From positions 1,054,001 to 1,118,000 of the forward strand of contig JAHLLQ010000001.1 of the NCBI GenBank assembly GCA_020444065.1: a DNA stretch of 64,000 nucleotides. Reading direction: 5' to 3'. Each line of letters begins with the position of its first letter. Positions within the stretch are counted from its first letter, which is position 1. Of the stretch, positions 26,168-54,445 are shown piece by piece. Below the pieces are notes generated by a model. That model was not told the DNA's origin, searched no databases, and saw only the letters and a list, made by a program, of their open reading frames with translations. The stretch comes from a bacterium (lineage in GTDB: Bacteria > Sumerlaeota > Sumerlaeia > SLMS01 > JAHLLQ01). The position numbers and the translations under genes are program-made.

Positions 26168-29100
26168 TCACTGCGGTGGAAGTGCATCTGGCACATCTCC
26201 AAGAGAGTTGTTTAGGTTATAGGGAATGTATGGCAAGTCATCCAGGCTCACTAAGGAAGGGTGCCGCTCATACTCAGGTACATAGTCGTCATCATCAGGT
26301 GATCCGTCAGGGTACCCGTCATGATTCCAGGTGATTTCGGACATGAGTACAAGGCCATCGAAGTCATGAGAAATGTATGTCGGTGGTGTCGCACCTTCGT
26401 CTTGGATGAATAGTGCCCTCCATGTTGCCCAACAAGCGCCTTTGTTCAGGGAATGGGGCTTTGCCGCAGCCATCCACTGTGGTGCAGTCTCCCAGTTGGA
26501 TTCGTCCTCAACACCACCCGTGCCCACCCAGGTCAGGCCGTACCCGTCAACGGCGCGGGCGAAATTCTCCGCATGGGCTGCAGATTCACCGCCATTCGAG
26601 TAGTAATCCCACGGCATATAGCGGATGCTCTTCGGCACTTGCCCTGCTGCGCGATACCTTTCTTCCGCAAAATCGCCCTTGAAACGGTCGAAATGGTAGC
26701 GATCGAAAGCGTCTGCCCAAGCAATCAAGCTGCAGCCCTCGGGGACGATCTCACTCAGTCTAGACAGACTGTAGGCAACTTGCTGGCTGTTCGTCAGACC
26801 AGCCGAAAGAGAACGTCCATCCAGATTGATTAATCGAATGTCGTCATGCCCAACAACGAACGTCGTAAGGCCGAACCCGTAGCCGTCAGGATCCACTTCC
26901 GGATCGGCATGCCATGCATTGAAGAATGCCTCTGCCAGCAAATAGAGTTTCTCGCTTTGGGGGCAACTGTGTCCAGTCGGCACGGGACCAACTTCATTCC
27001 ATGAGACCGTAAGGCGTTTACCGATCGGCCAGTCCAAGTTCCAGAGTTCCCAATTCTGGTCCTGCTCCGTACCGACCAGGCGCAGATTGTAGTCAGTACC
27101 TTCGACGAGGGTGTTCCCGAGATGGTCCCTGACAAGGAGGGTGTCGTGATTCAGGCTGTTGGTGATCAGCCCGGACCCAATCTCCTCGGGGATGCACTTG
27201 ACCTGAACATCGTCGAACCAGAAGTCGCCTGACCAGTTGCTGTTGTCGATCGGAGATACGTCTATCGAGCAGGTGATACGAGTATTTCGGCCAGTGTTGA
27301 AGAGTATTCGGTACTTTCGCCAGTCAGAGGATGAAGGGAAAGGAGCGAAAGTCCGGTTGATGTTGAGATCCCGGTAATTGTGCCGTGCCCAGGAGCCATC
27401 TTCATCCACATCAATGGATGTTTCTGGAGCGGCCGCCGGCTTGGCAGCGCTGAGGGTTGCGCCGAAGTTCGCATTGGAGACGCTCTGCCATTTCGCCCAG
27501 AAGCTCATTTCAATGGTCGTCCAGGGGGGAACAGTGAAGTCCTGGTAGATTGATCTATTGGTCTTCGTATCTGGGTCATCCGCCCCGCTGTTTGATGTTA
27601 CGAGGAGCGCACTATTTCCGGAATGGAAATCGGCTGAATCCACAAATACGCCTGGTCTCTGCATCTGGTAGAACCACATTTCACCCCATGAGCCATTTCC
27701 AATAGAACCATCTGGGTATGCCTCCGCAGCCTCAAACGAGCCATCGAGAACATAGCTGGATGGATACAGATTCGCCGAATCGAAAACAGTGGAGCCACCC
27801 TCGGCGCAAAGCTGAAGACGCAGACTGGAGTATTCTCGGGAATTCAGTGTGATTCGCAGTGGTGTCCAGTCAGAGGTGGATACGACCCTTGGACTGGCCA
27901 GCATTTCCGCTGTAACGTCGTTGCCATAGTCATCGACCGGATATGCCTCGATCCATGCGCCATAGGCTGAATCCGTCTTCACGTATGCTTCGAAACAATA
28001 ATCGGTGTAGGGCTCTATGGAGACTGATTGATATGCCCGATTGGTTACAGGCTTTCTAGGCAGCGGTGGGAATATGACTTTCTCTGTCACGATGGGGCTT
28101 TTTTTTGATGTCTCGGATGCCTTTAGAAGAATTGGGTCAATCACAGGGGCGTGCATCCAGAGGCCGTACGTCCCGGTGTAGGGATCTGAGGCTCTTGAGA
28201 TGTTGTCCGGAATCTCTTCTGTCCAATCGTAGATGAGTCCATTCGATTGCAGATACTCAAAATCCGCATTCTTGAGCCAATTGGAACGGTAGATGCCCAC
28301 TGCGTCGAAGTGCTGTGGCTGCGAATCCAGGGTTTCGAGTTCTAAATAATGGGCACTCTCTACCGGGCCTGTTTCAAAGGTCTGTCGGAACGAGCGCCAG
28401 TGGGGCTGAAAGGTACTCGGCTCGTTAAGGGTGGCATTCAAAATCGGCGTTCCATCCAACTCGGAGATGTCCAGGACGGGAAGGAGCGAAGAGCCGTCGG
28501 CCAGATCGCCGGGCTCAAAAAGGGCACGTGCCTCATACTGAACCCGCGGCTCTGGAGTGAACTCCTGCCGCAGTTTCATGAGACCAGTCGTCCTGACAGA
28601 GGATACGCCATCTCCGCTGGTCTTGGCATCGAGAATGGCATCGGCACCGGCGGATTGCGGAAGCTCCTGCCAACCGGCGGGATCGAAGTCGTGATCTTCG
28701 AAGCTCTCTACGAACAGGGTGTTCGGGGCTTCCGGTTCAACCGTGATGTCGTCAAACCATGTGGTTCCCCCGCCGTGAAGATGAAGATAGATACGGAAAG
28801 TCCCCGTCGAGTTCGTCTCGAAGGTTAGCTCCTGCATGTACCAATCTGAATCTATCCCGGGCCGCAGATCTCGAGCAACCACATAGGAATCATCAATAAT
28901 CTGCCCATTCTCAGTTGCGTAGATCTCGCAGTAGGCAATGGATTCCGATTGCAGGTCATGCTTCACCCAGGCTCTGAGCGTGTGGATCATGTTCGGCGTG
29001 GAGATGAAGTCCTGGGTCATGCGAGTCATGCCGGCAGAGGAGCGCGACATTCTCAAGCAGGACGCTCCGTTGCGGGGCTGTGTTTGATCGCGCGAGATCA

Positions 29101-31165
29101 CCCCTCCTCCCGAGTCTTCCTGCCATTCGTGTGCGTTGTAGCTGGTACTCCAATACTCGAAAGTCCCGTTACGCGCAATGTCGCGCTGGATGAGACGAAA
29201 GTAATCAAAGCCCCGCTCTAATCCCATCGCTGGGAAGATGATACCGATTTCTTGAGAGTCCTCGGTAAAGAGCCGGGCTTCGTAGCTCGTCCAATCATTG
29301 GTTTCCAAGGCTAGGTTCGAGGTTCCCAGAAGTGAAGCCCCAGTCACATGAACTAGGTCCTCGGCCTTGGCATCCCACCTGGCTCGAATCCATCCGGTGA
29401 CTTCCAAGTTCGAGTAAGAGGGGGCAGGAATCGAAGCCAGCGAGTAATCCACGTCGCCGGGAACCTGTGGAACCTGTGGAGGTCGATAGAAGTAGTTGTT
29501 CCCGTGAATCGGACTTTGATTGCGATACGTGGAAGTATCTGCCGCCTCTTCGAAGTCTCCCTTCGCCAGAAGGTTTTCGTCATCTGAAAGAACTGGAGCG
29601 TTAAGCGCCGGCGTTGCCACCCCAAGAGACTGAACTTCGAATGGGATTTGATTGCAGAAATAGCCTTCCGTTAACGAGAATGGATCGTAGAACGTGATGA
29701 TGGCGTAGTTGAAGAACCCCAGTCCGATAATTGGCGTCAAATGGCGCTCGTTCATGTAGTCGAAGAGCTTGCCAAAGTGCGTCCAGTAAGCCCATCCCTG
29801 CGATTCATTCTCATTTACCTTGAGATCCCATTGCTCCGTCGCGGGATTCCACGAAAAGAGCCTGTTTTCCTCCAGTTGTCCCCATCCATACCCTATGGCA
29901 TCATCGTAGCCAAGCATCACCTCGGAGAGCTTCAGATTGGTCAGGTAATCGAGTCGTTCTCTTCCCTCCACGGAGAGGTCGTAGGGCCAAGGCGAATCAA
30001 TAAAATCAAAAAACGCACCCAAATCCGGATCCTGGTACATCATACTCCGGACCGGATAGTCTGGATAGTCAAGTACACTGAAGTCGTAGGGCACGCCCAG
30101 GCTGCCACGTGGGCAGTCGCCAGCCTCAACTTGGGTGAGGACTTGTCGCAGCGATTGCATTCCATAGTAACGCCCCTGGGCGCCTTTGCCAACGACGTAG
30201 TACCCGACCTTCCACTGGCCAGGAGCATCCTCAAATCGATTCGCCCAGAGGAGATAGGATTGATCACGCTGCCAAGACTCGAGCGCGCGAACATACCGAT
30301 CGTATCTCTGGACGAGGTCTTCTGGAATGTCGTCCAACTTAAGTTGAAGCTCAGCATCATATTCCGTGAGGTTGGTGACTCCCTCTTCTGCTCGAAAGAC
30401 CCTGACGGAATCGAACCAGGCCTGACCGGACGAACCGTGGAGCCGAAGATAGATTCGGGCTGATGTGTATTGGCCTGAATTGAAGGTTCCGCGAAGGACA
30501 CACCAGTCATTCGTGCCGGAGAGCCATTCCGTTTGGAAGGAATCGACATGGCCCCCGTTGTCATCCATGCGATACATCTCGCCAAGAACGACTCCTCCGA
30601 CCGATTCTGTGCGGACCCACATCTCGAAGCAGTACTCTGTATCGAGTTCAACGCGAAAGTCCTGATAGAGACGCGTCATCTCAATCGGATCTGTGTGCGG
30701 AAGTAGCTTAGCAGATGCATCGCCTCGCTTCTTCGTCGTGGTGTCATAGAAGTTGAGAACGGAGGTCCATTCTTCGACCCAATCGTCGATATCATCGCCG
30801 GAGTGTTCCTCCATGGATGGATTCTTCAAGAGGTTCTCTGAGTTGATCAGATAGACTTGAATTGGGGAAGAGGAATCGCCTAGAACCCCGAATCCATCCT
30901 CGCGATCGGGATCGACCTGCTCAGCGGCGATCGTTTCACCTTCCGTTCTATCGGACCAGACATAAGTGGATCCTTGATCATCCACACACTCGAATTGAAT
31001 CTGTGAGTCGTCGTACTTCTGCGGCATGGGGATGATAAGCGGTGTATCAGCGTGAGATAGTCCCGGATGGCCTATCCAACAGAGCGACAGAAAGGCCAAG
31101 GGTGCCAGCAATGACAACCGACGATTGATAGAAAGCTTGGTACGGACCGACAGGCATTCTGTCAT
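26168..31165 (-). CDS. Giant secreted GH20-like protein with nested carbohydrate-binding-like modules
   Basis: The 1665-residue protein has a signal peptide (1-39). Residues 43-110 and 265-350 look like the GH20b lead domain (IPMPQKY; GKGAQGRYYGMQSLRQVL), split by a CBM-like jelly roll (111-262). A barrel-like part starts at 365 (DYPDYPVRSMM) and stops near 520. Five more CBM-like or beta-sandwich modules follow, opening with NGTFEYW, NADFEYL or DGSFEAA (about 530-660, 662-810, 815-958, 960-1135, 1137-1325). The barrel-like sequence resumes at about 1400-1640 with VGHDDIR (1438-1444) where GH20 enzymes have GGDE. It may act on amino-sugar polymers. The function is inferred; identity to any known enzyme is low by eye. 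Base composition is AT-richer than that of neighbours. Confidence 0.6.
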   Translation of the reverse strand: MTECLSVRTKLSINRRLSLLAPLAFLSLCWIGHPGLSHADTPLIIPMPQKYDDSQIQFECVDDQGSTYVWSDRTEGETIAAEQVDPDREDGFGVLGDSSSPIQVYLINSENLLKNPSMEEHSGDDIDDWVEEWTSVLNFYDTTTKKRGDASAKLLPHTDPIEMTRLYQDFRVELDTEYCFEMWVRTESVGGVVLGEMYRMDDNGGHVDSFQTEWLSGTNDWCVLRGTFNSGQYTSARIYLRLHGSSGQAWFDSVRVFRAEEGVTNLTEYDAELQLKLDDIPEDLVQRYDRYVRALESWQRDQSYLLWANRFEDAPGQWKVGYYVVGKGAQGRYYGMQSLRQVLTQVEAGDCPRGSLGVPYDFSVLDYPDYPVRSMMYQDPDLGAFFDFIDSPWPYDLSVEGRERLDYLTNLKLSEVMLGYDDAIGYGWGQLEENRLFSWNPATEQWDLKVNENESQGWAYWTHFGKLFDYMNERHLTPIIGLGFFNYAIITFYDPFSLTEGYFCNQIPFEVQSLGVATPALNAPVLSDDENLLAKGDFEEAADTSTYRNQSPIHGNNYFYRPPQVPQVPGDVDYSLASIPAPSYSNLEVTGWIRARWDAKAEDLVHVTGASLLGTSNLALETNDWTSYEARLFTEDSQEIGIIFPAMGLERGFDYFRLIQRDIARNGTFEYWSTSYNAHEWQEDSGGGVISRDQTQPRNGASCLRMSRSSAGMTRMTQDFISTPNMIHTLRAWVKHDLQSESIAYCEIYATENGQIIDDSYVVARDLRPGIDSDWYMQELTFETNSTGTFRIYLHLHGGGTTWFDDITVEPEAPNTLFVESFEDHDFDPAGWQELPQSAGADAILDAKTSGDGVSSVRTTGLMKLRQEFTPEPRVQYEARALFEPGDLADGSSLLPVLDISELDGTPILNATLNEPSTFQPHWRSFRQTFETGPVESAHYLELETLDSQPQHFDAVGIYRSNWLKNADFEYLQSNGLIYDWTEEIPDNISRASDPYTGTYGLWMHAPVIDPILLKASETSKKSPIVTEKVIFPPLPRKPVTNRAYQSVSIEPYTDYCFEAYVKTDSAYGAWIEAYPVDDYGNDVTAEMLASPRVVSTSDWTPLRITLNSREYSSLRLQLCAEGGSTVFDSANLYPSSYVLDGSFEAAEAYPDGSIGNGSWGEMWFYQMQRPGVFVDSADFHSGNSALLVTSNSGADDPDTKTNRSIYQDFTVPPWTTIEMSFWAKWQSVSNANFGATLSAAKPAAAPETSIDVDEDGSWARHNYRDLNINRTFAPFPSSSDWRKYRILFNTGRNTRITCSIDVSPIDNSNWSGDFWFDDVQVKCIPEEIGSGLITNSLNHDTLLVRDHLGNTLVEGTDYNLRLVGTEQDQNWELWNLDWPIGKRLTVSWNEVGPVPTGHSCPQSEKLYLLAEAFFNAWHADPEVDPDGYGFGLTTFVVGHDDIRLINLDGRSLSAGLTNSQQVAYSLSRLSEIVPEGCSLIAWADAFDRYHFDRFKGDFAEERYRAAGQVPKSIRYMPWDYYSNGGESAAHAENFARAVDGYGLTWVGTGGVEDESNWETAPQWMAAAKPHSLNKGACWATWRALFIQDEGATPPTYISHDFDGLVLMSEITWNHDGYPDGSPDDDDYVPEYERHPSLVSLDDLPYIPYNLNNSLGDVPDALPPQ

Positions 31166-31570: not shown

Positions 31571-34500
31571 TTATCTCGCCCCGACAGCGATGAAGTTGAA
31601 CGATGCGCGTTCGGCGTCGTTATTACCGAGTTGGCGCGTCTCGATCTTGATCACATTCGTGCCGGACTGCGTGACGATGCAGGCGCGGTTCAGTGTCCTC
31701 GCCGTCGCGGTGACAATCGGATTATCCGCGAACGAGGCCGCAAAGGTGATCGTGTACTCGTTGTTCGTGCGGGTGACACTCTGGATGCCATTGCCGGAGA
31801 CTCCATCGACTCCGGTCCCCGATTCGTCGTCGATGATGGAACCCGCAACGATGCGCAACGGGCTGGCCGCTTCCGATGCAACCGGGGAGTATTGCTGGGC
31901 GCCAAACGTCATCTCGCCAGTTTGAGATTCGACTTCGACAAGCGGTGTTGAACTTCCCGATTCATTGAGAACGTAAGCGACGAAGTAGTGATCATAGGTC
32001 GAACTGATCTCCCCGCGCCCGCCCGCGTATGGGTCGGTGGGAGTCTGCCCCCAACTGACAAAACCGCTCGATGCGACCAGGTGCACGGTGTATTGATTGC
32101 CGGCTGTGATCGGCACTGGGAAGATCCAGGAGACTTCCTGCAACGCGCCTCCAGTGCCTGCGATTGCAGGCAGAGAGCTCTGCGAAAGGATCGCGCCACC
32201 GGCTCCCTCGCCTTCGCGCAAGTAGGCAGTAACCGGACCCGCCGGACCGATGCGCTGAATGACCACTCGGGCTAGCCGCGCGGATGCTACGGCGGTGAAA
32301 CTCTGCCATTCGTCTGTGGCATTCGTGAAACTGCTGCCCGTCGGATTGCTCGCGTCAGTACTCAGGGCACGATCGGACAATCGGTAGAATCCATTTTCAA
32401 CTTCGAGGGTTCCAACGCTGCCGACATTGAAATTCGCGGCAGAGAATTCATCGGCCGAGGCTTCTCCATTCACTTCGAGCGGAGTATCCGGGTCATCGGT
32501 GCCGATGCCGACATTGCCGCCAAGGAAAGTCGCCGCGTAAGGCACCGTTGCAGCGCCGCCGCTCATGTCGACTTTGAAGGCGCGGGCTGCTGTCGTGCCT
32601 TCAAGACTGCTGCCGTCAATCAGCAGGAGGGGACCGTTGCTTGGTTCCTCTCCAATCGGATCGCTAATCAGGCCCCCCTTGGGTTCCGTACCCGAAATCA
32701 CCATGCCGCCGGACTTGTCCTTGTTGAGAATCACGTTGATTTCCGCCGGCGTATTCTCCCGCCCGATTTTGATGTCTGCCTTGGACTGATCGAGAGAACT
32801 CGGGGCCAGATTGCTGCCAAGCGTCACATTCACCTGCCGTGCGTTGAAATTCACGCTCGCTGTCGTGTCGAAGCCGAAACCACCGAGAGTAGGATCGAAA
32901 CTGAGGTCGTTCAGACCACTAATGGAGAGGCCGCCGGCGCTGTCGCCCTGTGTGAGAACGCTATTTAGATTCTGCAACTCATTCGTCGAATCGCCGTCGC
33001 CGTCGACGGGCAGATTCGTCAGCGCCGAACCATCTCCGATGAAGCTGTTGGCGTACACCGTTCCACCAGCTTCGATATCGTCGGCTACCCAAAGGTCGCC
33101 GTTGTTTCCGATCCCGAAATCCAGGTTGCTGGATGGGTCGAAGGACAACAGGCGCGTATACCCATTGGAGCCAACTGCGACGCTGTCGTGGAACTGGCTG
33201 CCGTAACCAGTGTTGCCGTGTACCACGGAGAAGCGATTGGCGTCGCCGCCGCTCTGGACGCTGAAGAGTTGGAAACTGCCGTCCGCCGAGGGGTTGTCCT
33301 GGGTCTGAATGACAAGGGCCTGCGAAGTTGTTGTGGCCTGGGCCGAGTCGGTGCCACTCGTGAGAATCTGATAATTGCCGATGGCAATATTGCCCCAACT
33401 GTTCCCGGGCTGGGCATTCGTATTCAGCCCACCATCAAAGCCAATTCGCAATGTGCTGTTGACCTGCGAAGATGAGAACTGCCCCTGGCCGCCGATGTTC
33501 GCCTGGTTGCCATTGCTGAGAACAGACTGAAGATCCTGGAGCTCATTCGTCGGATCGGAGTCCGCGTCGTCCACGTTATCGACGAGACCAGTCAGGCCCG
33601 ATCCGTCGCCGACAAATGCAGAGGCCGTCACTGTTCCGTTCACATCGAGTTCCGATGTGGGGTCCTCCTTGTTGATGCCAACGCCATTGGCCGCTTCGAT
33701 CAGGAACTGCCCCGGCGCAGTTGTGGAGAAAAGGTCCGTTAAGCCGCTGTCGTACCCGGTCGTACCATCGGACCAGACAAACGAGAAATCGTGATCCGCC
33801 GCGGCATTGGAACCGGCAGCGAGGCTGGCGTAACCGTTGGCCTCGTTCGCTTCGCCACCGACCGTCGCCCCCAGAGGCGCGGAAACGTAGTTGTAGTAAC
33901 CACCGCCTATGAAGCCAAGTTCGCCTTCAGAGCCCGGGAAATCGTCGATGTAATTATCGACGCCTCCGACGATCCCGGAATCGAGCGCTCCAGCGTAATT
34001 CAAGTCGCCGCCCAACACGACAGATTCCTCGCCATAGGCGAGATTGTCTTCGCCGGCAAACACGCCTGCCTGGTGATTGCTCGCTTCATTCTTCTCTCCG
34101 CCAACGACGACCGCCTGCGGTCCCGTTGCGAAGTTCCGATTGCCGCCGAATACACCAGCATCCAGCGCGGATTGTGAATCGCCATCGGGCGAACCGGCTG
34201 TGTTTTCCTGTCCACCAATAACGACGCTGAAGTCATCCCACGCCGAGTTGATCTCTGGAATCGGCGCGGGGAAATCGTTCTGATTCGCGTCGCTGGCAGA
34301 GACGATCGTCCCGACCGCACCATCGCCGACAACGGATGCTCGGAAGTCACCGAGCGTGATGTTCGGCGCGAAATCGCCCTCGCTGTCCGCGCCGGTACTC
34401 ACGCGAATGGCACGCTGCCCTTCCACACGAATGTCGAAGGGCGCTTCATTGACGGTTCCGATGTAAGTGGTGTCGGTGGTGCCCTGGTTGCCGGAAAGAG

Positions 34501-36460
34501 TCCAGAATTCCGCAGACAGATCAACGTCGGTCGGATCGCCGGTCAGGTTTAGCATGCTTCCACTGAGCGATAGGTCCTGCAGTTCGTTCGTCGGATCTGC
34601 GTCCGCATCGCCGGGCAAATTCGTCAGAGCCGAACCGTCGCCGACGAACCGATTTGCCGTGACAGCACCACCGAAGATGCCATTGCCGTTCGCGATCAAC
34701 GCGTTCGCCGCGCCGGTACTACTCACGATTCCATACATGGAAAGCGCCCTGTCGTTGAGCGATGTTGCGTAGATGATTCCGCTGCGGAACTTGAGCCCTT
34801 GCGGGTACTGAAGCAGCGAGAAATCGCCTCCCCGCGAATCATCCGTCGCATACGCCATCTCCGTTGGGTTCGTTGGATCCGATACGTCAACCACAGTGAG
34901 CGAATCGTCGAACAGCGAACCAACCGCTGCCCACGTGCCATCGGATGAAATGTGCCGGGCGCCCTCAAGACGACTGAACGTGCCACCGCGGCTCGAGCCG
35001 ACCCCAACACCAAGTTCGACAGGAGCCGAAGGAACAGAAACATCGATCATCGTCACGGCATCTGACACCGAGGCGGTCACATAGGCGATATCCCCAACGA
35101 GGTCGAGACCGACCGCCCCGTTGAGTTGAGAGAAAGTTCCGCCGCTACTGACATCTTGAGCGACGCCGATTTCGACCGGTATCGCCGGATTTGTGACATC
35201 GATGATGCTGAGCGCGTCGTTGTCCTGAGAGGTCACATAGGCGAGATTGTTTCTTACGATCACGGTTCCACTGCCGCCTAGCTTGAAACCGGCCTTGGCT
35301 TCTCCGAGGAAGGCAGGAGATGCCGGATTCGAGAGATCGATGATCGTGAGGGCATCGTCGTATTGGGCAAGCGCGTAAGCAGTCGTCCCCTGCACGAAGA
35401 CATCGGCAACCGGGAAAAGGGAGGGGAAACTCCCACCGAGGTTGTCATCGACAGCGGTTCCAAGGAGGACGGGCGTGGTCGGATCGGAGACATCGATGAC
35501 TTTTACTGTCTGCCCGGACCCGACGCAGGCCAGATCACCATCGACGCTGATGCAGCTTCCGCCCAATCCAGCAACATTGGCAACAGGGATCGGATTCGTG
35601 GGATTAGAGATGTCGAGCACGACCAGTGAACCTGATACGACAAACGCCAATGAACCTTGAAGTTCAACGTCCTGCGGAGCGATAAGTCCCTCGAACGTCC
35701 CACCGGGTTTGGAGACATCAATGGCGGCGCCTACCTGGGTCAACAATGTGACGGCACTTCCCGAGGCTCGCGTTTGAATCTCCAGGCCTGCGACGGGAGA
35801 CGTGGTTCCGATACCAACACGTCCTTCGCCATCCACGTAAAGCGCATCGATCGGATCGCCGTCTGCCGCGTCCAGCGAGTGGCCGTCAGGAACGGCGGAA
35901 AGCAGGCCGCCGAGGCTCACGGAGTTTCCGCCACTGATTGACAGGTTCGGGGATGTGAAGGAGAGCGTCTGTAGTTCATTCGCCGGATCGGCATCGGCAT
36001 CATCTACATTGCCGGCCGTCTCCGCATACATCGCATACGGGGCCGGAAGCATCTGCACCCGCGGCGTTACCGTCTCGAAGTTGTCGGCCCCACCATCGGC
36101 ATCGACGGCAATCTCCAGCCACCGGGAGGAGCCATCGAACGCTGTAGCGCCAAAATCGAGCGATTCCTCGACCAGGCCGGAAGAGATGAGCCGGTCAGGT
36201 GGGGCGATCGTTCCGCCGATTTGAGTGCCGGTTGTCGGGGCGTCAAAGAGGGAGAAGCGAAGGCTGACCGGCCCGTCCAACGGCGCCCCCCCGTTTGTCA
36301 AACGCCCCTGGTAGGTGAAGGCAGTGCCCGGGTCTGCGAAGGCACTCCCACCGAAAACGCAGACAAGCCCTGCGATCACGACGACAGGCCGAATGGTTAA
36401 AACATGGCTCAAAAACGCCGAAAGCGCGCCCCAGGGCGCGAATCGTCTGGCGGATATCAT
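31571..36460 (-). CDS. Giant secreted LVIVD-propeller and YadA-head-like surface protein
   Basis: The 1629-residue protein has an N-terminal signal region (to about residue 43) followed by the FTYQGRLTNGGAPLDGPVSLRFSLFD opening found in many large exported proteins. Residues about 255-580 hold LVIVD-type repeats (VIDVSDPTTP, IIDLSNPASP, IIDVTNPAIP, VVDVSDPTNP), which form a beta-propeller. Residues about 740-890 hold short repeats with GG/N spacing (VIGGQEN, VVVGGEKNEA, VVLGGDLN, ATVGGEANEA) like left-handed YadA adhesin heads. Linkers DADxDPTNELQDL and FVGDGSALTNLP recur at least three times, each before VGIGT-type blocks. No membrane anchor or enzyme motif is seen. It is probably a surface or extracellular structural or binding protein. 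Confidence 0.65.
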   Translation of the reverse strand: MISARRFAPWGALSAFLSHVLTIRPVVVIAGLVCVFGGSAFADPGTAFTYQGRLTNGGAPLDGPVSLRFSLFDAPTTGTQIGGTIAPPDRLISSGLVEESLDFGATAFDGSSRWLEIAVDADGGADNFETVTPRVQMLPAPYAMYAETAGNVDDADADPANELQTLSFTSPNLSISGGNSVSLGGLLSAVPDGHSLDAADGDPIDALYVDGEGRVGIGTTSPVAGLEIQTRASGSAVTLLTQVGAAIDVSKPGGTFEGLIAPQDVELQGSLAFVVSGSLVVLDISNPTNPIPVANVAGLGGSCISVDGDLACVGSGQTVKVIDVSDPTTPVLLGTAVDDNLGGSFPSLFPVADVFVQGTTAYALAQYDDALTIIDLSNPASPAFLGEAKAGFKLGGSGTVIVRNNLAYVTSQDNDALSIIDVTNPAIPVEIGVAQDVSSGGTFSQLNGAVGLDLVGDIAYVTASVSDAVTMIDVSVPSAPVELGVGVGSSRGGTFSRLEGARHISSDGTWAAVGSLFDDSLTVVDVSDPTNPTEMAYATDDSRGGDFSLLQYPQGLKFRSGIIYATSLNDRALSMYGIVSSTGAANALIANGNGIFGGAVTANRFVGDGSALTNLPGDADADPTNELQDLSLSGSMLNLTGDPTDVDLSAEFWTLSGNQGTTDTTYIGTVNEAPFDIRVEGQRAIRVSTGADSEGDFAPNITLGDFRASVVGDGAVGTIVSASDANQNDFPAPIPEINSAWDDFSVVIGGQENTAGSPDGDSQSALDAGVFGGNRNFATGPQAVVVGGEKNEASNHQAGVFAGEDNLAYGEESVVLGGDLNYAGALDSGIVGGVDNYIDDFPGSEGELGFIGGGYYNYVSAPLGATVGGEANEANGYASLAAGSNAAADHDFSFVWSDGTTGYDSGLTDLFSTTAPGQFLIEAANGVGINKEDPTSELDVNGTVTASAFVGDGSGLTGLVDNVDDADSDPTNELQDLQSVLSNGNQANIGGQGQFSSSQVNSTLRIGFDGGLNTNAQPGNSWGNIAIGNYQILTSGTDSAQATTTSQALVIQTQDNPSADGSFQLFSVQSGGDANRFSVVHGNTGYGSQFHDSVAVGSNGYTRLLSFDPSSNLDFGIGNNGDLWVADDIEAGGTVYANSFIGDGSALTNLPVDGDGDSTNELQNLNSVLTQGDSAGGLSISGLNDLSFDPTLGGFGFDTTASVNFNARQVNVTLGSNLAPSSLDQSKADIKIGRENTPAEINVILNKDKSGGMVISGTEPKGGLISDPIGEEPSNGPLLLIDGSSLEGTTAARAFKVDMSGGAATVPYAATFLGGNVGIGTDDPDTPLEVNGEASADEFSAANFNVGSVGTLEVENGFYRLSDRALSTDASNPTGSSFTNATDEWQSFTAVASARLARVVIQRIGPAGPVTAYLREGEGAGGAILSQSSLPAIAGTGGALQEVSWIFPVPITAGNQYTVHLVASSGFVSWGQTPTDPYAGGRGEISSTYDHYFVAYVLNESGSSTPLVEVESQTGEMTFGAQQYSPVASEAASPLRIVAGSIIDDESGTGVDGVSGNGIQSVTRTNNEYTITFAASFADNPIVTATARTLNRACIVTQSGTNVIKIETRQLGNNDAERASFNFIAVGAR

Positions 36461-51001: not shown

Positions 51002-54000
51002 CTAAGACTGCCCGCCCACACCGGACTTCTCCAGCGCAATCGACTTGATCTTCCGCAAGTCCATCTTGCCGGTTCCGAGGACAGGAATCTCTTCGATGCG
51101 ATGGAAATCCGCCAGGCGAGGGATGTAGAGGTTTGGCAGTGCACCGCTCTTGGAGAGTTTGTCCACGGCCTCCTTCGCTTCCTCGTCGGTCATGGTGTGG
51201 AGAACGACCAGCTTCTCGCCCTTTTTCTCGTCCGGTATGCCGGTGACGGCGAAGCGCATTTCGCTCAAGTCCAGCACTTCGTGCAGTGCTTCCTCAACGC
51301 GCCCGTGCGGAACCATCTCGCCGGCCAGCTTGCTGAACCGGGAGAGGCGATCGGTAATCTCGACAAACCCGTCCTCGTCGATCTTCGCCATGTCTCCGGT
51401 CACATACCAACCGTCGTGAATCACTTCGGCGGTCTTTTCTGGCTGGTTCAAGTACCCCATCATGACGTTGGGACCCTTCACGAGCATCAGCCCTTCCTCG
51501 CCCAGGGGGAGTTCCATGTGAGATGCCGGATCGACGATCCGGAGGCTGACGCCGGGCAACGGATGGCCGATCTTGCCAGGTTTGAAGCCCAACTGGTACA
51601 TGCCCGGCGCGCGGAAGTCGTTGGTGTTAACGGCAACAACGGGCGAGCATTCGGTGCAGCCGTAGCCTTCGTAGGGTCGGATGCCAAAGCGTTCTTGGAA
51701 CGCCTTCGCCACGCCTTCGCGGAGTTTCTCTGCGCCGGTCACGACAACTTGAAGCGAACCGAACTGAGAGGGTTGAATGCGCCGCGTGTAGCTTTGCAGG
51801 AACGTTGGCGTGGCGACCATGAACGTGACGGCGTGTCGTTCCACAATCTCTCCGATGCTCTTCGCGTCCAACGGGTTCGGATGATACGCGACGCCGATTC
51901 CCAGGCAGAGCGGCATGAACAACGTCGCCGTAAATCCAAACGAATGGAAGAACGGCAGAATGCCGAGAATCGCGTCCTTCTTCGTCAACGAGAAGAGCTG
52001 GCCGATGGCCTCGATGTTGGAGTAGATGTTCCAGTGCGACAGCATCACGCCCTTCGGGTTGCCGGTGCTGCCGCTGGAGAAGATGATGCCAGCCATATCG
52101 TCGACGGAGCGATGGCTCGGCGCCCCAAGGTTTCGTTCGAGCCGTACGATCGGAAGGAACATCGCCTCCATCATCGCGCGAAGACGGGCGCTGCCATTGA
52201 TGCGCTTGCGCAGGTCTTCCGCATGTATGATGCGCCCGGGCAGTTCCAACGGGAGCTTCTGAAGGAACGCGCGCGATGTGATCACCGTCTCCAGTTCGCA
52301 CTGTTCCGCGATGTTCTTGAGGATCTCCGCAGAGGCGGTGTAGTTCATATTCACGGGCACTTTGCCCATCAGGAGCGCCGCGACGTTCACCATCGCGCCG
52401 GCGATTGAGGGCGGCAGACAAATGCCAACCATCTTCTGCCCCTGCCACTCGCTGCGCAGAACATGCGCGAGCGCCACGACGCCGGTCAGGAACTTCCAGC
52501 GGGGAATCCCATTTGGCGCATTGATGTCCGCCATCCATTTCGAGAACGGATGCCGCCGGCCAGAGACAAACGCGTCTCGATGCAGCATCGGTGCGTCCTC
52601 TTTTCGGTGCTGCCAAGCATCGGATGCGAGATCGAGCACCGCCTGGCGAACTTCCGTCGACGTCGCGGTGGCTGGCATCGGCTCACCGTAACTGATCGTC
52701 ACCGGCCAGGGAATGCGCTTCGGCAATTTCAGCAGCCAGCGCTGGTTGCTGAAACTGAGGAGACTCCCCCACACTCGATCTAGATGCATTGGGATGATCG
52801 GCGCGTCGACGTCCTTCATGATACGCTCGAGGCCGCGCCGGAACGGCAGCAACTGTCCCGTGCGCGTGATCTGGCCTTCGGCAAAAATCCCGACGAGATC
52901 GCCGTCGTTGATGGCTTCGGAAGCGGTATGGAAAGCCGTCAGGAGTTCCCGCGGCCCCATGCGATCGGAAACGGGGATCGAGCGAGAGAGCTTCGCGAAC
53001 GGCTTCACGAGGGGATGGTGGTAGATTTCCTCGAAGAGCAACATGCGGATCGGCCGATCCATCGCTGATATGATCAGCAGCGCATCGGCAAAGCTCATGT
53101 GATTACAGACGAAGAGGGCGCCGCCTTTCTCCGGGATGTTCTCCCGACCGACGACACGCGTCTTATAGATCGTATTGGCGAAGACAAACAGAATGAAGCG
53201 CAGGCCGGCGCCGGGAATCACGGCGATTACGATCCCGGACAAAACCAGCTCGAAGATCCCGAGCGACAAGTAGATGTGATAAGCCGAGAAATCGAATGTC
53301 TTTGTCAGAAGAACGTACAGCAACAGACCCGCCCCAACCGCCAAGGTGGCGATGGCGTTCATGAAGCCAATAATTCCGGCACGCGAATCCGGCCGGGCGG
53401 CGTGCTGGATGAAAGCCTTCAAGGGAATCGCAAAGGAGGCCGAGAAGAACCCATAGGATGCCGCACTGACGACGAACCAGAACTCGTAATGCGGCAGGAA
53501 GAAGACTGCCAGCGCCGAAATCGCCATCCCGAATCCGCCGAGTGGAACGACGCCGACCTCGATCTTCTGGCGAGAGATTCGCCCCGTCACGTAGCATCCG
53601 AGCGCCAGGCCCGTCGCGACGGCAAGCAGGACACGAACCGCGTCAAACGTGGAGACACTCTGGCTGCCATACTGAACGGCTGCCTGCAACGCGATCGCTG
53701 TCACCGCCCACCAGACGGCAATTCCGCCGATGGACCAGAACAAGCCGGGTGTTGTTCGAATCTCGTCGATGTGCCGACGCAGGCGCGCCATTGGGAAGAA
53801 GGATGGCGCCTCGTCCGGTGCTGCCGGCGGCAGCTTATCGATTCCCAGACTGATGAGAAGGCCAACTCCCGCCAGGACGGCAAGGGCGAATGTTGGAATC
53901 CAAAGCTGGTCGGCAAAGCGACTCGAAGCAAGTTCGCCAACAATGACGCCGAAGGCTCCGGCAAGAAACCACAGTGAGTCCACCCAGCCATTCGCCCAGG

Positions 54001-54445
54001 AGAGCCGGCGAGCCGGAAGCAACTCCGGTAGTAGGCCGTACTTCGCGGGATCCGATAGAGTCCCCACGGCGGCGAGCAGGCCCAGGACCCCAAGCGCAAG
54101 CCACGTCTGGCCGGCCAGAAAGAGGAAGGCGCCTGCCAACCCAGCGACGACTTCCAGGAGCTTGGTCGCGATGATCACGCGACGCTTCGAGACACGGTCC
54201 GCCCACTGGCCCGCGAGGATGGAGAAAACCAGCCATGGCAATCCCACCGCCAGGGCGAGGCTGAAGCTGCCGCTGCCGGCCCGCCCAATCTCCGCCCCCG
54301 CCGCGAACCACAGGAAGAAACGGAAGAAGGTCGAACTGAACGCCCCCTGGAAAACCACCGCCGCTAATGCGCGGAAGGAGAGCAAATCGGGCTCGGCCGG
54401 TTCGTTCGGTGGTCGGTGGATCGAGGTGGCTTCTGGTTCGGTCAT
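51002..54445 (-). CDS. aas: MFS - acyltransferase - acyl-ACP synthetase fusion (Aas-like)
   Basis: The 1147-residue protein joins three parts. Residues 25-415 are a 12-helix MFS transporter (LplT-like). Residues 435-600 are a PlsC acyltransferase with H449-x4-D454 (NHMSFAD) and FAEGQITRTG. Residues 640-1135 are an AMP-forming acyl ligase with SSGSTGNPKGV (790-800), a GYGCTECSP segment and the TGDMAKIDEDGF hinge. In E. coli, LplT and Aas are separate proteins that flip lysophospholipids inward and re-acylate them; a single chain would couple import and repair. The gap upstream (54446-54747) is the divergent promoter region. Confidence 0.92.
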   Translation of the reverse strand: MTEPEATSIHRPPNEPAEPDLLSFRALAAVVFQGAFSSTFFRFFLWFAAGAEIGRAGSGSFSLALAVGLPWLVFSILAGQWADRVSKRRVIIATKLLEVVAGLAGAFLFLAGQTWLALGVLGLLAAVGTLSDPAKYGLLPELLPARRLSWANGWVDSLWFLAGAFGVIVGELASSRFADQLWIPTFALAVLAGVGLLISLGIDKLPPAAPDEAPSFFPMARLRRHIDEIRTTPGLFWSIGGIAVWWAVTAIALQAAVQYGSQSVSTFDAVRVLLAVATGLALGCYVTGRISRQKIEVGVVPLGGFGMAISALAVFFLPHYEFWFVVSAASYGFFSASFAIPLKAFIQHAARPDSRAGIIGFMNAIATLAVGAGLLLYVLLTKTFDFSAYHIYLSLGIFELVLSGIVIAVIPGAGLRFILFVFANTIYKTRVVGRENIPEKGGALFVCNHMSFADALLIISAMDRPIRMLLFEEIYHHPLVKPFAKLSRSIPVSDRMGPRELLTAFHTASEAINDGDLVGIFAEGQITRTGQLLPFRRGLERIMKDVDAPIIPMHLDRVWGSLLSFSNQRWLLKLPKRIPWPVTISYGEPMPATATSTEVRQAVLDLASDAWQHRKEDAPMLHRDAFVSGRRHPFSKWMADINAPNGIPRWKFLTGVVALAHVLRSEWQGQKMVGICLPPSIAGAMVNVAALLMGKVPVNMNYTASAEILKNIAEQCELETVITSRAFLQKLPLELPGRIIHAEDLRKRINGSARLRAMMEAMFLPIVRLERNLGAPSHRSVDDMAGIIFSSGSTGNPKGVMLSHWNIYSNIEAIGQLFSLTKKDAILGILPFFHSFGFTATLFMPLCLGIGVAYHPNPLDAKSIGEIVERHAVTFMVATPTFLQSYTRRIQPSQFGSLQVVVTGAEKLREGVAKAFQERFGIRPYEGYGCTECSPVVAVNTNDFRAPGMYQLGFKPGKIGHPLPGVSLRIVDPASHMELPLGEEGLMLVKGPNVMMGYLNQPEKTAEVIHDGWYVTGDMAKIDEDGFVEITDRLSRFSKLAGEMVPHGRVEEALHEVLDLSEMRFAVTGIPDEKKGEKLVVLHTMTDEEAKEAVDKLSKSGALPNLYIPRLADFHRIEEIPVLGTGKMDLRKIKSIALEKSGVGGQS

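Follow-up and report, generated by a model that had tools for sequence, protein, structure and literature searches.

GH84 O-GlcNAcase-type hexosaminidases use an Asp-Asp pair at the end of barrel strand 4 for catalysis, and many of them have a GH20b-like lead domain. In the GH20 enzymes, the pair is Asp-Glu; the Asp polarizes the 2-acetamido group and the Glu is the acid/base, as seen from mutation in the Vibrio harveyi GlcNAcase (PMC4752478). Catalytic domains that hold a nested carbohydrate-binding module (CBM) are known from other families. GH10 xylanases of the Xyn10C type carry one to three CBMs in the loop between strand 3 and helix 3 of the barrel, and removal of the CBMs from Pm25 left catalysis intact (PMC7848910). 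The GH13 amylase SusG is mentioned in the same paper as having CBM58 inserted in its domain B (PMC7848910). A literature search limited to open access turned up no report of a GH20 barrel with nested CBMs.

The gene studied here lies at positions 26168 to 31165 on the (-) strand of the window, which is the whole 64,000-nucleotide stretch of DNA that was analyzed. It is a single open reading frame of 1,665 codons without internal stops in its translation. The genome has 5.2 Mb, and the gene is located well inside a 1.26-Mb contig, which rules out an edge artefact. We consider the product (the window protein) to be a secreted multimodular glycosidase-like protein, with a GH20-type barrel split by an insertion arm and a GH20b-like domain split by a sixth CBM, a reading to which we assign a probability of roughly 80%. 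From the N terminus, its order is predicted signal peptide, split GH20b-like domain, strands 1 to 3, five CBM-like modules, a beta module, and strands 4 to 8. The features are listed below; P0001 (at L013) is a homologue from the same-class genome G034, which is cut off by its contig end, and L042 and L102 are relatives that each belong to another phylum.

31049..31165 (-): predicted signal peptide, residues 1-39, with RR, a hydrophobic stretch and the end ...GLSHA, read from the translation
30842..31048 (-): GH20b-like domain, part 1, residues 40-108 (IIPMPQ... IQVYLI), aligned with LLIPWPQ of P0001 and PIIPTPS of L102, weak in the GH20 profile
30395..30841 (-): M0, CBM_4_9 module within the GH20b-like domain, residues 109-257, Pfam CBM_4_9 at 3.7e-8, above cutoff
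30071..30394 (-): GH20b-like domain, part 2, residues 258-365 (GRYYGMQSLRQ), matched by Glyco_hydro_20b after M0 removal and by P0001 (52 bits)
29576..30070 (-): barrel strands 1-3 and the strand-3 loop running into the insert, residues 366-530 (contains SLTEGYFCNQIPFEV), colinear with P0001 to the CBM start
29900..29905 (-): Asp421-Asp422 (GYDDAIGYGW), presumed end of strand 2, possible counterpart of the GH20 second acidic pair, placed from sequence alone with an inferred register
29186..29575 (-): M1, residues 531-660, CBM-like by end motifs alone (NLLxxGDFE start, FDxxxL end), no profile match
28721..29185 (-): M2, residues 661-815, CBM_4_9-like, family CBM profile 35 bits, 28% identity to M0 (6e-8)
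28283..28720 (-): M3, residues 816-961, CBM-like by end motifs alone (FVESFE start, FDAVGI end), no profile match
27755..28282 (-): M4, residues 962-1137, CBM_4_9-like, 34% identity to M0 (7e-17), Pfam CBM_4_9 at 0.045, family profile 19 bits
27182..27754 (-): M5, residues 1138-1328, CBM_4_9-like, family profile 32 bits, colinear in the alignment with the single CBM of the family
26978..27181 (-): beta module, residues 1329-1396 (LLVRDHLGNTLVEGTDYN ... LTVSWN), which ends the insert throughout the family, aligned with L042 and the ~600-aa family
26366..26977 (-): barrel helix 3 and strands 4-8, residues 1397-1600 (end approximate), from the relatives' HMM, L102 (43.9 bits) and the helix/strand order in a partial model
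26840..26851 (-): GHDD, residues 1439-1442, where GH20 enzymes have their Asp-Glu pair (GHDEV in those of the same class)
26711..26719 (-): Trp-Ala-Asp, residues 1483-1485, strand 5; W.D is conserved in most relatives

When the full window protein was compared with Pfam, CBM_4_9 was the sole match above cutoff, and Glyco_hydro_20b was weak. The GH20 catalytic barrel (PF00728) gave no match to the protein at E<=1 and none in its genome, and the Pfam scan of the protein contained neither NAGidase (PF07555, GH84) nor a GH10 barrel. Zero matches were obtained from NCBIfam and PDB sequences with the full protein, and a PDB sequence search with the protein, its C half, or a two-row N profile returned nothing useful. 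The protein as a single query found zero relatives in the genome contig collection, and the plasmid search gave zero matches. Since conservation is highest in the CBMs, these supplied most of the matches when relatives were sought with the whole protein, and the barrel halves were therefore searched separately.

An earlier note on this DNA, made from the sequence, had described GH20b-like and barrel-like sequence on both sides of a series of modules, and a further module in the lead domain. Both descriptions are borne out. Cutting residues 109 to 257 out of the query improved the match to Glyco_hydro_20b (PF02838) from 0.0075 to 2.1e-4 (22.4 bits; curated cutoff, 26.1), part of which gain is explained by the shorter query; a better score is what is predicted if M0 interrupts the domain. 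The alignment shows no counterpart of M0 in the GH20b domain of P0001, L102, or L042, and since P0001 lacks the module there, residues 109 to 257 are a second insertion. From GH20b through the first barrel half, in which strands 1 to 3 span residues 366 to ~486, P0001 matches the window protein with 52 bits (2e-10), and the CBM starts at the same place in both ('IPFEVQSLGVATPALNAPVLSDDENLLAKGDFEE' in the window protein, 'IPFIFQQGLNIAQPVYPVSVPIPIENAVKNGDFSE' in P0001). The junction is marked by an EG...PF motif, which is common to the window protein, P0001, L042, L100, and a family of ~600-aa proteins described below. The likeness of the first half to that family is confined to this junction (hhalign probability of 5% with the N-half profile), and MAFFT could not align the family's N-half rows to the window protein. 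We considered L069, from the same genome as P0001, as the missing half of P0001 and rejected it, as it is a complete stand-alone barrel with HVGMDE. Such barrels of 350 to 410 aa, with HVGMDE and without GH20b, are also encoded at L101:1954-3000 and L106:1199-2425; in motif and size they resemble Treponema GH20 (lacto-N-biosidase, 9fyl/9fym).

The arm between the barrel halves comprises five CBM-like modules (residues 531 to 1328), followed by the small beta module. The count of five agrees with the earlier note, with M2, M4, and M5 backed by profile and M1 and M3 by end motifs only; the CBM-like call for the latter two draws on these shared motifs, their length, and weak pairwise scores. The family CBM profile matches residues 665 to 813 (35 bits), 1042 to 1121 (19 bits), and 1170 to 1360 (32 bits) between the halves, and the profile of the ~600-aa family picks up four window modules. 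The beta module of ~68 residues had been missing from the earlier list and is a conserved part of the insert in the family. M0 (30395-30841) and M4 (27755-28282), both on the (-) strand, are the most alike pair of modules despite their different host domains. The identities of M0 to M4 (34%) and to M2 (28%) indicate modules copied within the gene or drawn from one pool, and related modules thus appear to have gone into two different hosts, the GH20b domain and the barrel arm.

Relatives were found with and without the insert. L102, L190, and L191 have GH20b and an uninterrupted barrel, which in L102 reads HIGHDDV and lacks the insert. L042, with 1,121 aa, has GH20b (1e-12), a strand 3 with PIPEVQGGG, and one CBM (~329-486), after which come a beta module, LTNVIRTDSSDIVITNLDKTTTYLEGIDYN, and a second half with NIGHGEIRGMNRDSRS; the window counterparts of these two segments are LITNSLNHDTLLVRDHLGNTLVEGTDYN and FVVGHDDIRLINLDGRS. 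One CBM plus a beta module occupies the site of the window insert in L042, L100, and the ~600-aa family. Between the end of strand 3 and the acidic pair lie 57 residues in L102, 298 in L100, 318 in L042, and 295 to 300 in the ~600-aa family (49 measured members), compared with 955 in the window protein, which therefore lies about four modules above the family norm and has the longest module string among the relatives found here.

The ~600-aa proteins (L109 to L188) were reached via a two-row profile of the second half. In a scan with one genome per species, at least 465 stretches encode relatives, spread over Planctomycetota, Verrucomicrobiota, Lentisphaerae, Armatimonadota, Poribacteria, Omnitrophota, and others. 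The first half stands directly before the CBM, and the CBM directly before the second half; members such as L154:4001-5641 and L156:4001-5632 are secreted proteins of ~600 aa with a GH20-like barrel split by CBM plus beta module. None of the members scanned has a catalytic match in Pfam or NCBIfam, and one member matches the GH20 structure 9fym by sequence (3e-8). The family profile detects L100 (206 bits) and L042 (171 bits) across the split. We propose that these proteins constitute a putative enzyme family of PVC and related phyla that has so far gone without annotation. The window protein shares with them the CBM and beta module between strand 3 and helix 3, including both anchors, and adds four further modules. 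The strictly conserved family motifs are MDE[IV]R and WSDM[FL]DPxHNA, in place of which the window protein has HDDIR and WADAFDRYH, so it is a distant branch outside the core family. The earlier note had called such nesting unusual. This holds for five modules plus a sixth in GH20b; the insertion as such deserves a milder word, since one insert is typical of a family with hundreds of members and one to three CBMs sit in the equivalent loop of GH10 xylanases (PMC7848910).

The homology of the second half was established with L042, L102, and a mixed HMM. L102 matches it with 43.9 bits (5e-8), and an HMM built from the second halves of 48 relatives, excluding the window protein, gives that protein 32 bits over strands 4 to 8, where the best of 1,000 shuffles scored 7.4. 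The lone C half compared with the ~600-aa family by hhalign is not significant (probability of 1%). The fold was modeled with AlphaFold2 on L154 from Planctomycetes bacterium CA13, using 53 sequences (pLDDT, 93; pTM, 0.88). The model has strands 1 to 3, the CBM and beta module (115 to 356), helix 3 (372 to 388), and strands 4 to 8. Foldseek matches its barrel to the GH20 structures 9fyl, 9fym, and 8bal, with one 8bal alignment covering the entire query including both barrel halves, and its insert to CBM16 and CBM4 structures. In the window protein, strand 1 to strand 8 takes about 1,215 residues. A model of residues 368 to 1567, for which the alignment rows covered only M5 and the second half, reached a pLDDT of 47.7 overall and 22 to 46 in the first barrel half; the second half, M2, M4, and M5 show the expected secondary structure, and the part of the barrel that formed is strands 4 to 6 with their helices. 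This weak model, together with the faint likeness of the first half to the ~600-aa family, is what speaks for a rival reading, in which each end has its own catalytic or binding domain, the two being unrelated and separated by CBMs, and there is no single barrel. We find that improbable, given that L102, L190, and L191 carry both halves as one continuous barrel and that in L042 and L100 the halves flank one CBM, their order and anchors being the same. A chimera or frameshift introduced by assembly or gene calling would fit the fact that the exact architecture is known in a single copy, and it is highly improbable for a gene with one open frame of this length inside such a contig whose homologues have the parts in the same order. 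Because of the uninterrupted relatives, the one-CBM relatives, and the CBM of P0001 at the same site, we favor one split barrel, as had been suggested for this gene; the three kinds of relatives and the L154 model agree with it, and we infer that the two halves of the window protein close into one barrel.

GHDD stands where the earlier note had placed it, so that the pair after strand 4 is Asp1441-Asp1442, as in GH84, and not the Asp-Glu of GH20. Since GH84 enzymes work with Asp-Asp, GHDD would be compatible with catalysis. In the GH20b-bearing relatives the pair reads DD (L102), ED (L190), TD (L191), GE (L042), and NE (L100). The strand-4 motif thus differs even among near relatives (HIGHED in L190, HIGHTD in L191, HIGHDD in L102), and the variation among these three suggests that, inside a single family of a single phylum, the mechanism has shifted or activity has been lost. 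Such drift in the branch, window protein included, is one reason to ask if the split barrel is no longer an enzyme and serves as a scaffold or lectin-like unit bearing a CBM string, in a secreted protein for glycan binding or adhesion. The six CBM-like modules, which make up most of the protein, and the lack of adjacent sugar-utilization genes point the same way. Against it, the second residue of the pair, at the acid/base position, is Asp or Glu in every GH20b-bearing relative examined while the first, polarizing one drifts, the strand-5 W.D is retained in the window protein (L100 reads YGD where most relatives have W.D), and [MA]DE[IV]R is kept in 51 of the 51 measured ~600-aa relatives. We regard the loss of enzymatic function as a possibility, with the odds against it. 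The same residues bear on the idea, in our view an unlikely one, that the clade has departed from the substrate-assisted mechanism of GH20 and acts on a sugar without a 2-acetamido group, with a different nucleophile, for example the Asp of W.D on strand 5. Of the five GH20b-bearing relatives examined, four have Gly, Asn, Thr, or Glu instead of the polarizing Asp, with an acid/base position that stays acidic and W.D in most, but the window protein retains Asp at the polarizing position and the ~600-aa family retains DE. Tentatively, and with more doubt than confidence, the window protein could be grouped with L042, L100, L102, L190, and L191 as a GH20-derived lineage of enzymes that has abandoned the polarizing residue in favor of another catalytic scheme and collects CBMs in its strand-3/helix-3 loop, up to five in the window protein, and which, joined with the ~600-aa family, would form a new, usually split GH family.

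The neighboring genes encode an LVIVD-repeat protein (upstream), an HlyD/MFS pair, an M28 peptidase, NIF3, and a starch synthase-type glycosyltransferase. No glycan-utilization cluster is evident among the genes beside the split-barrel gene, and there is no further GH20 or GH20b match elsewhere in the genome. The LVIVD-repeat protein (31571-36460, (-) strand; 1,629 aa) lies directly upstream and has weak similarity to choice-of-anchor B. Elsewhere in the window, 51002-54445 (-) encodes an 1,147-aa fusion of an MFS transporter, an acyltransferase, and an AMP-binding enzyme with an LplT-Aas-like layout.

Returning to the reading of a glycosidase-like protein with one split barrel, we propose the following model. 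The strand-to-helix loops of such barrels lie on the active-site face, so the arm is expected to leave from that face. It may have started as a single-CBM insert in an ancestor and then lengthened, in part at least through copying of modules within the gene, as the M0/M4 similarity would suggest. The arm would serve the enzyme as a tether to a glycan, insoluble or branched, from which the barrel would remove or cut sugar, with Asp1442 as the putative acid/base and Asp1441 orienting the 2-acetamido group. Judged from descent only, the substrate is likely an amino-sugar glycan. If so, a sugar-cleaving barrel can accommodate, in just one loop, an insert exceeding several whole barrels in length (955 residues between strand 3 and the acidic pair), and such inserts would grow by module addition. 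The graded relatives, with no insert, one CBM, and five CBMs, make this pathway of domain insertion directly testable. As Pfam and NCBIfam miss the family in the members scanned, glycan degraders in these phyla would be undercounted.

Among known systems, the GH84 O-GlcNAcase-type hexosaminidases are like the window protein in having Asp-Asp at the end of strand 4, but NAGidase (PF07555) is absent from the window protein and its nearest relatives are GH20-like. With the GH20 beta-N-acetylhexosaminidases and lacto-N-biosidases (9fyl/9fym from Treponema denticola; 8bal, Niako3494), it shares the GH20b-like lead, the predicted barrel order, and an acidic pair at the end of strand 4 (GHDE versus GHDD). 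It differs from them in the second catalytic position, which is Asp and not Glu, in giving no Pfam GH20 match, in the interruption of the barrel at strand 3/helix 3, and in the extra module in GH20b. SusG, as far as it is covered in the paper cited, also has a CBM nested in its catalytic domain, although as a single CBM in a different region of the fold (PMC7848910). The Xyn10C-type GH10 enzymes (Pm25, BACINT_04215, and BABRYA_1893) are alike in that their (b/a)8 barrel has CBM4-type modules inserted in the same loop, and unlike in having a GH10 barrel, xylan as the substrate, and one to three CBMs, with a second insert in the neighboring domain unreported in that paper (PMC7848910). Since these xylanases have CBMs at the equivalent loop, the principle is already known; what appears to be new here is the GH20-type host, the number of modules, the second insert in GH20b, and the drifting acidic pair.
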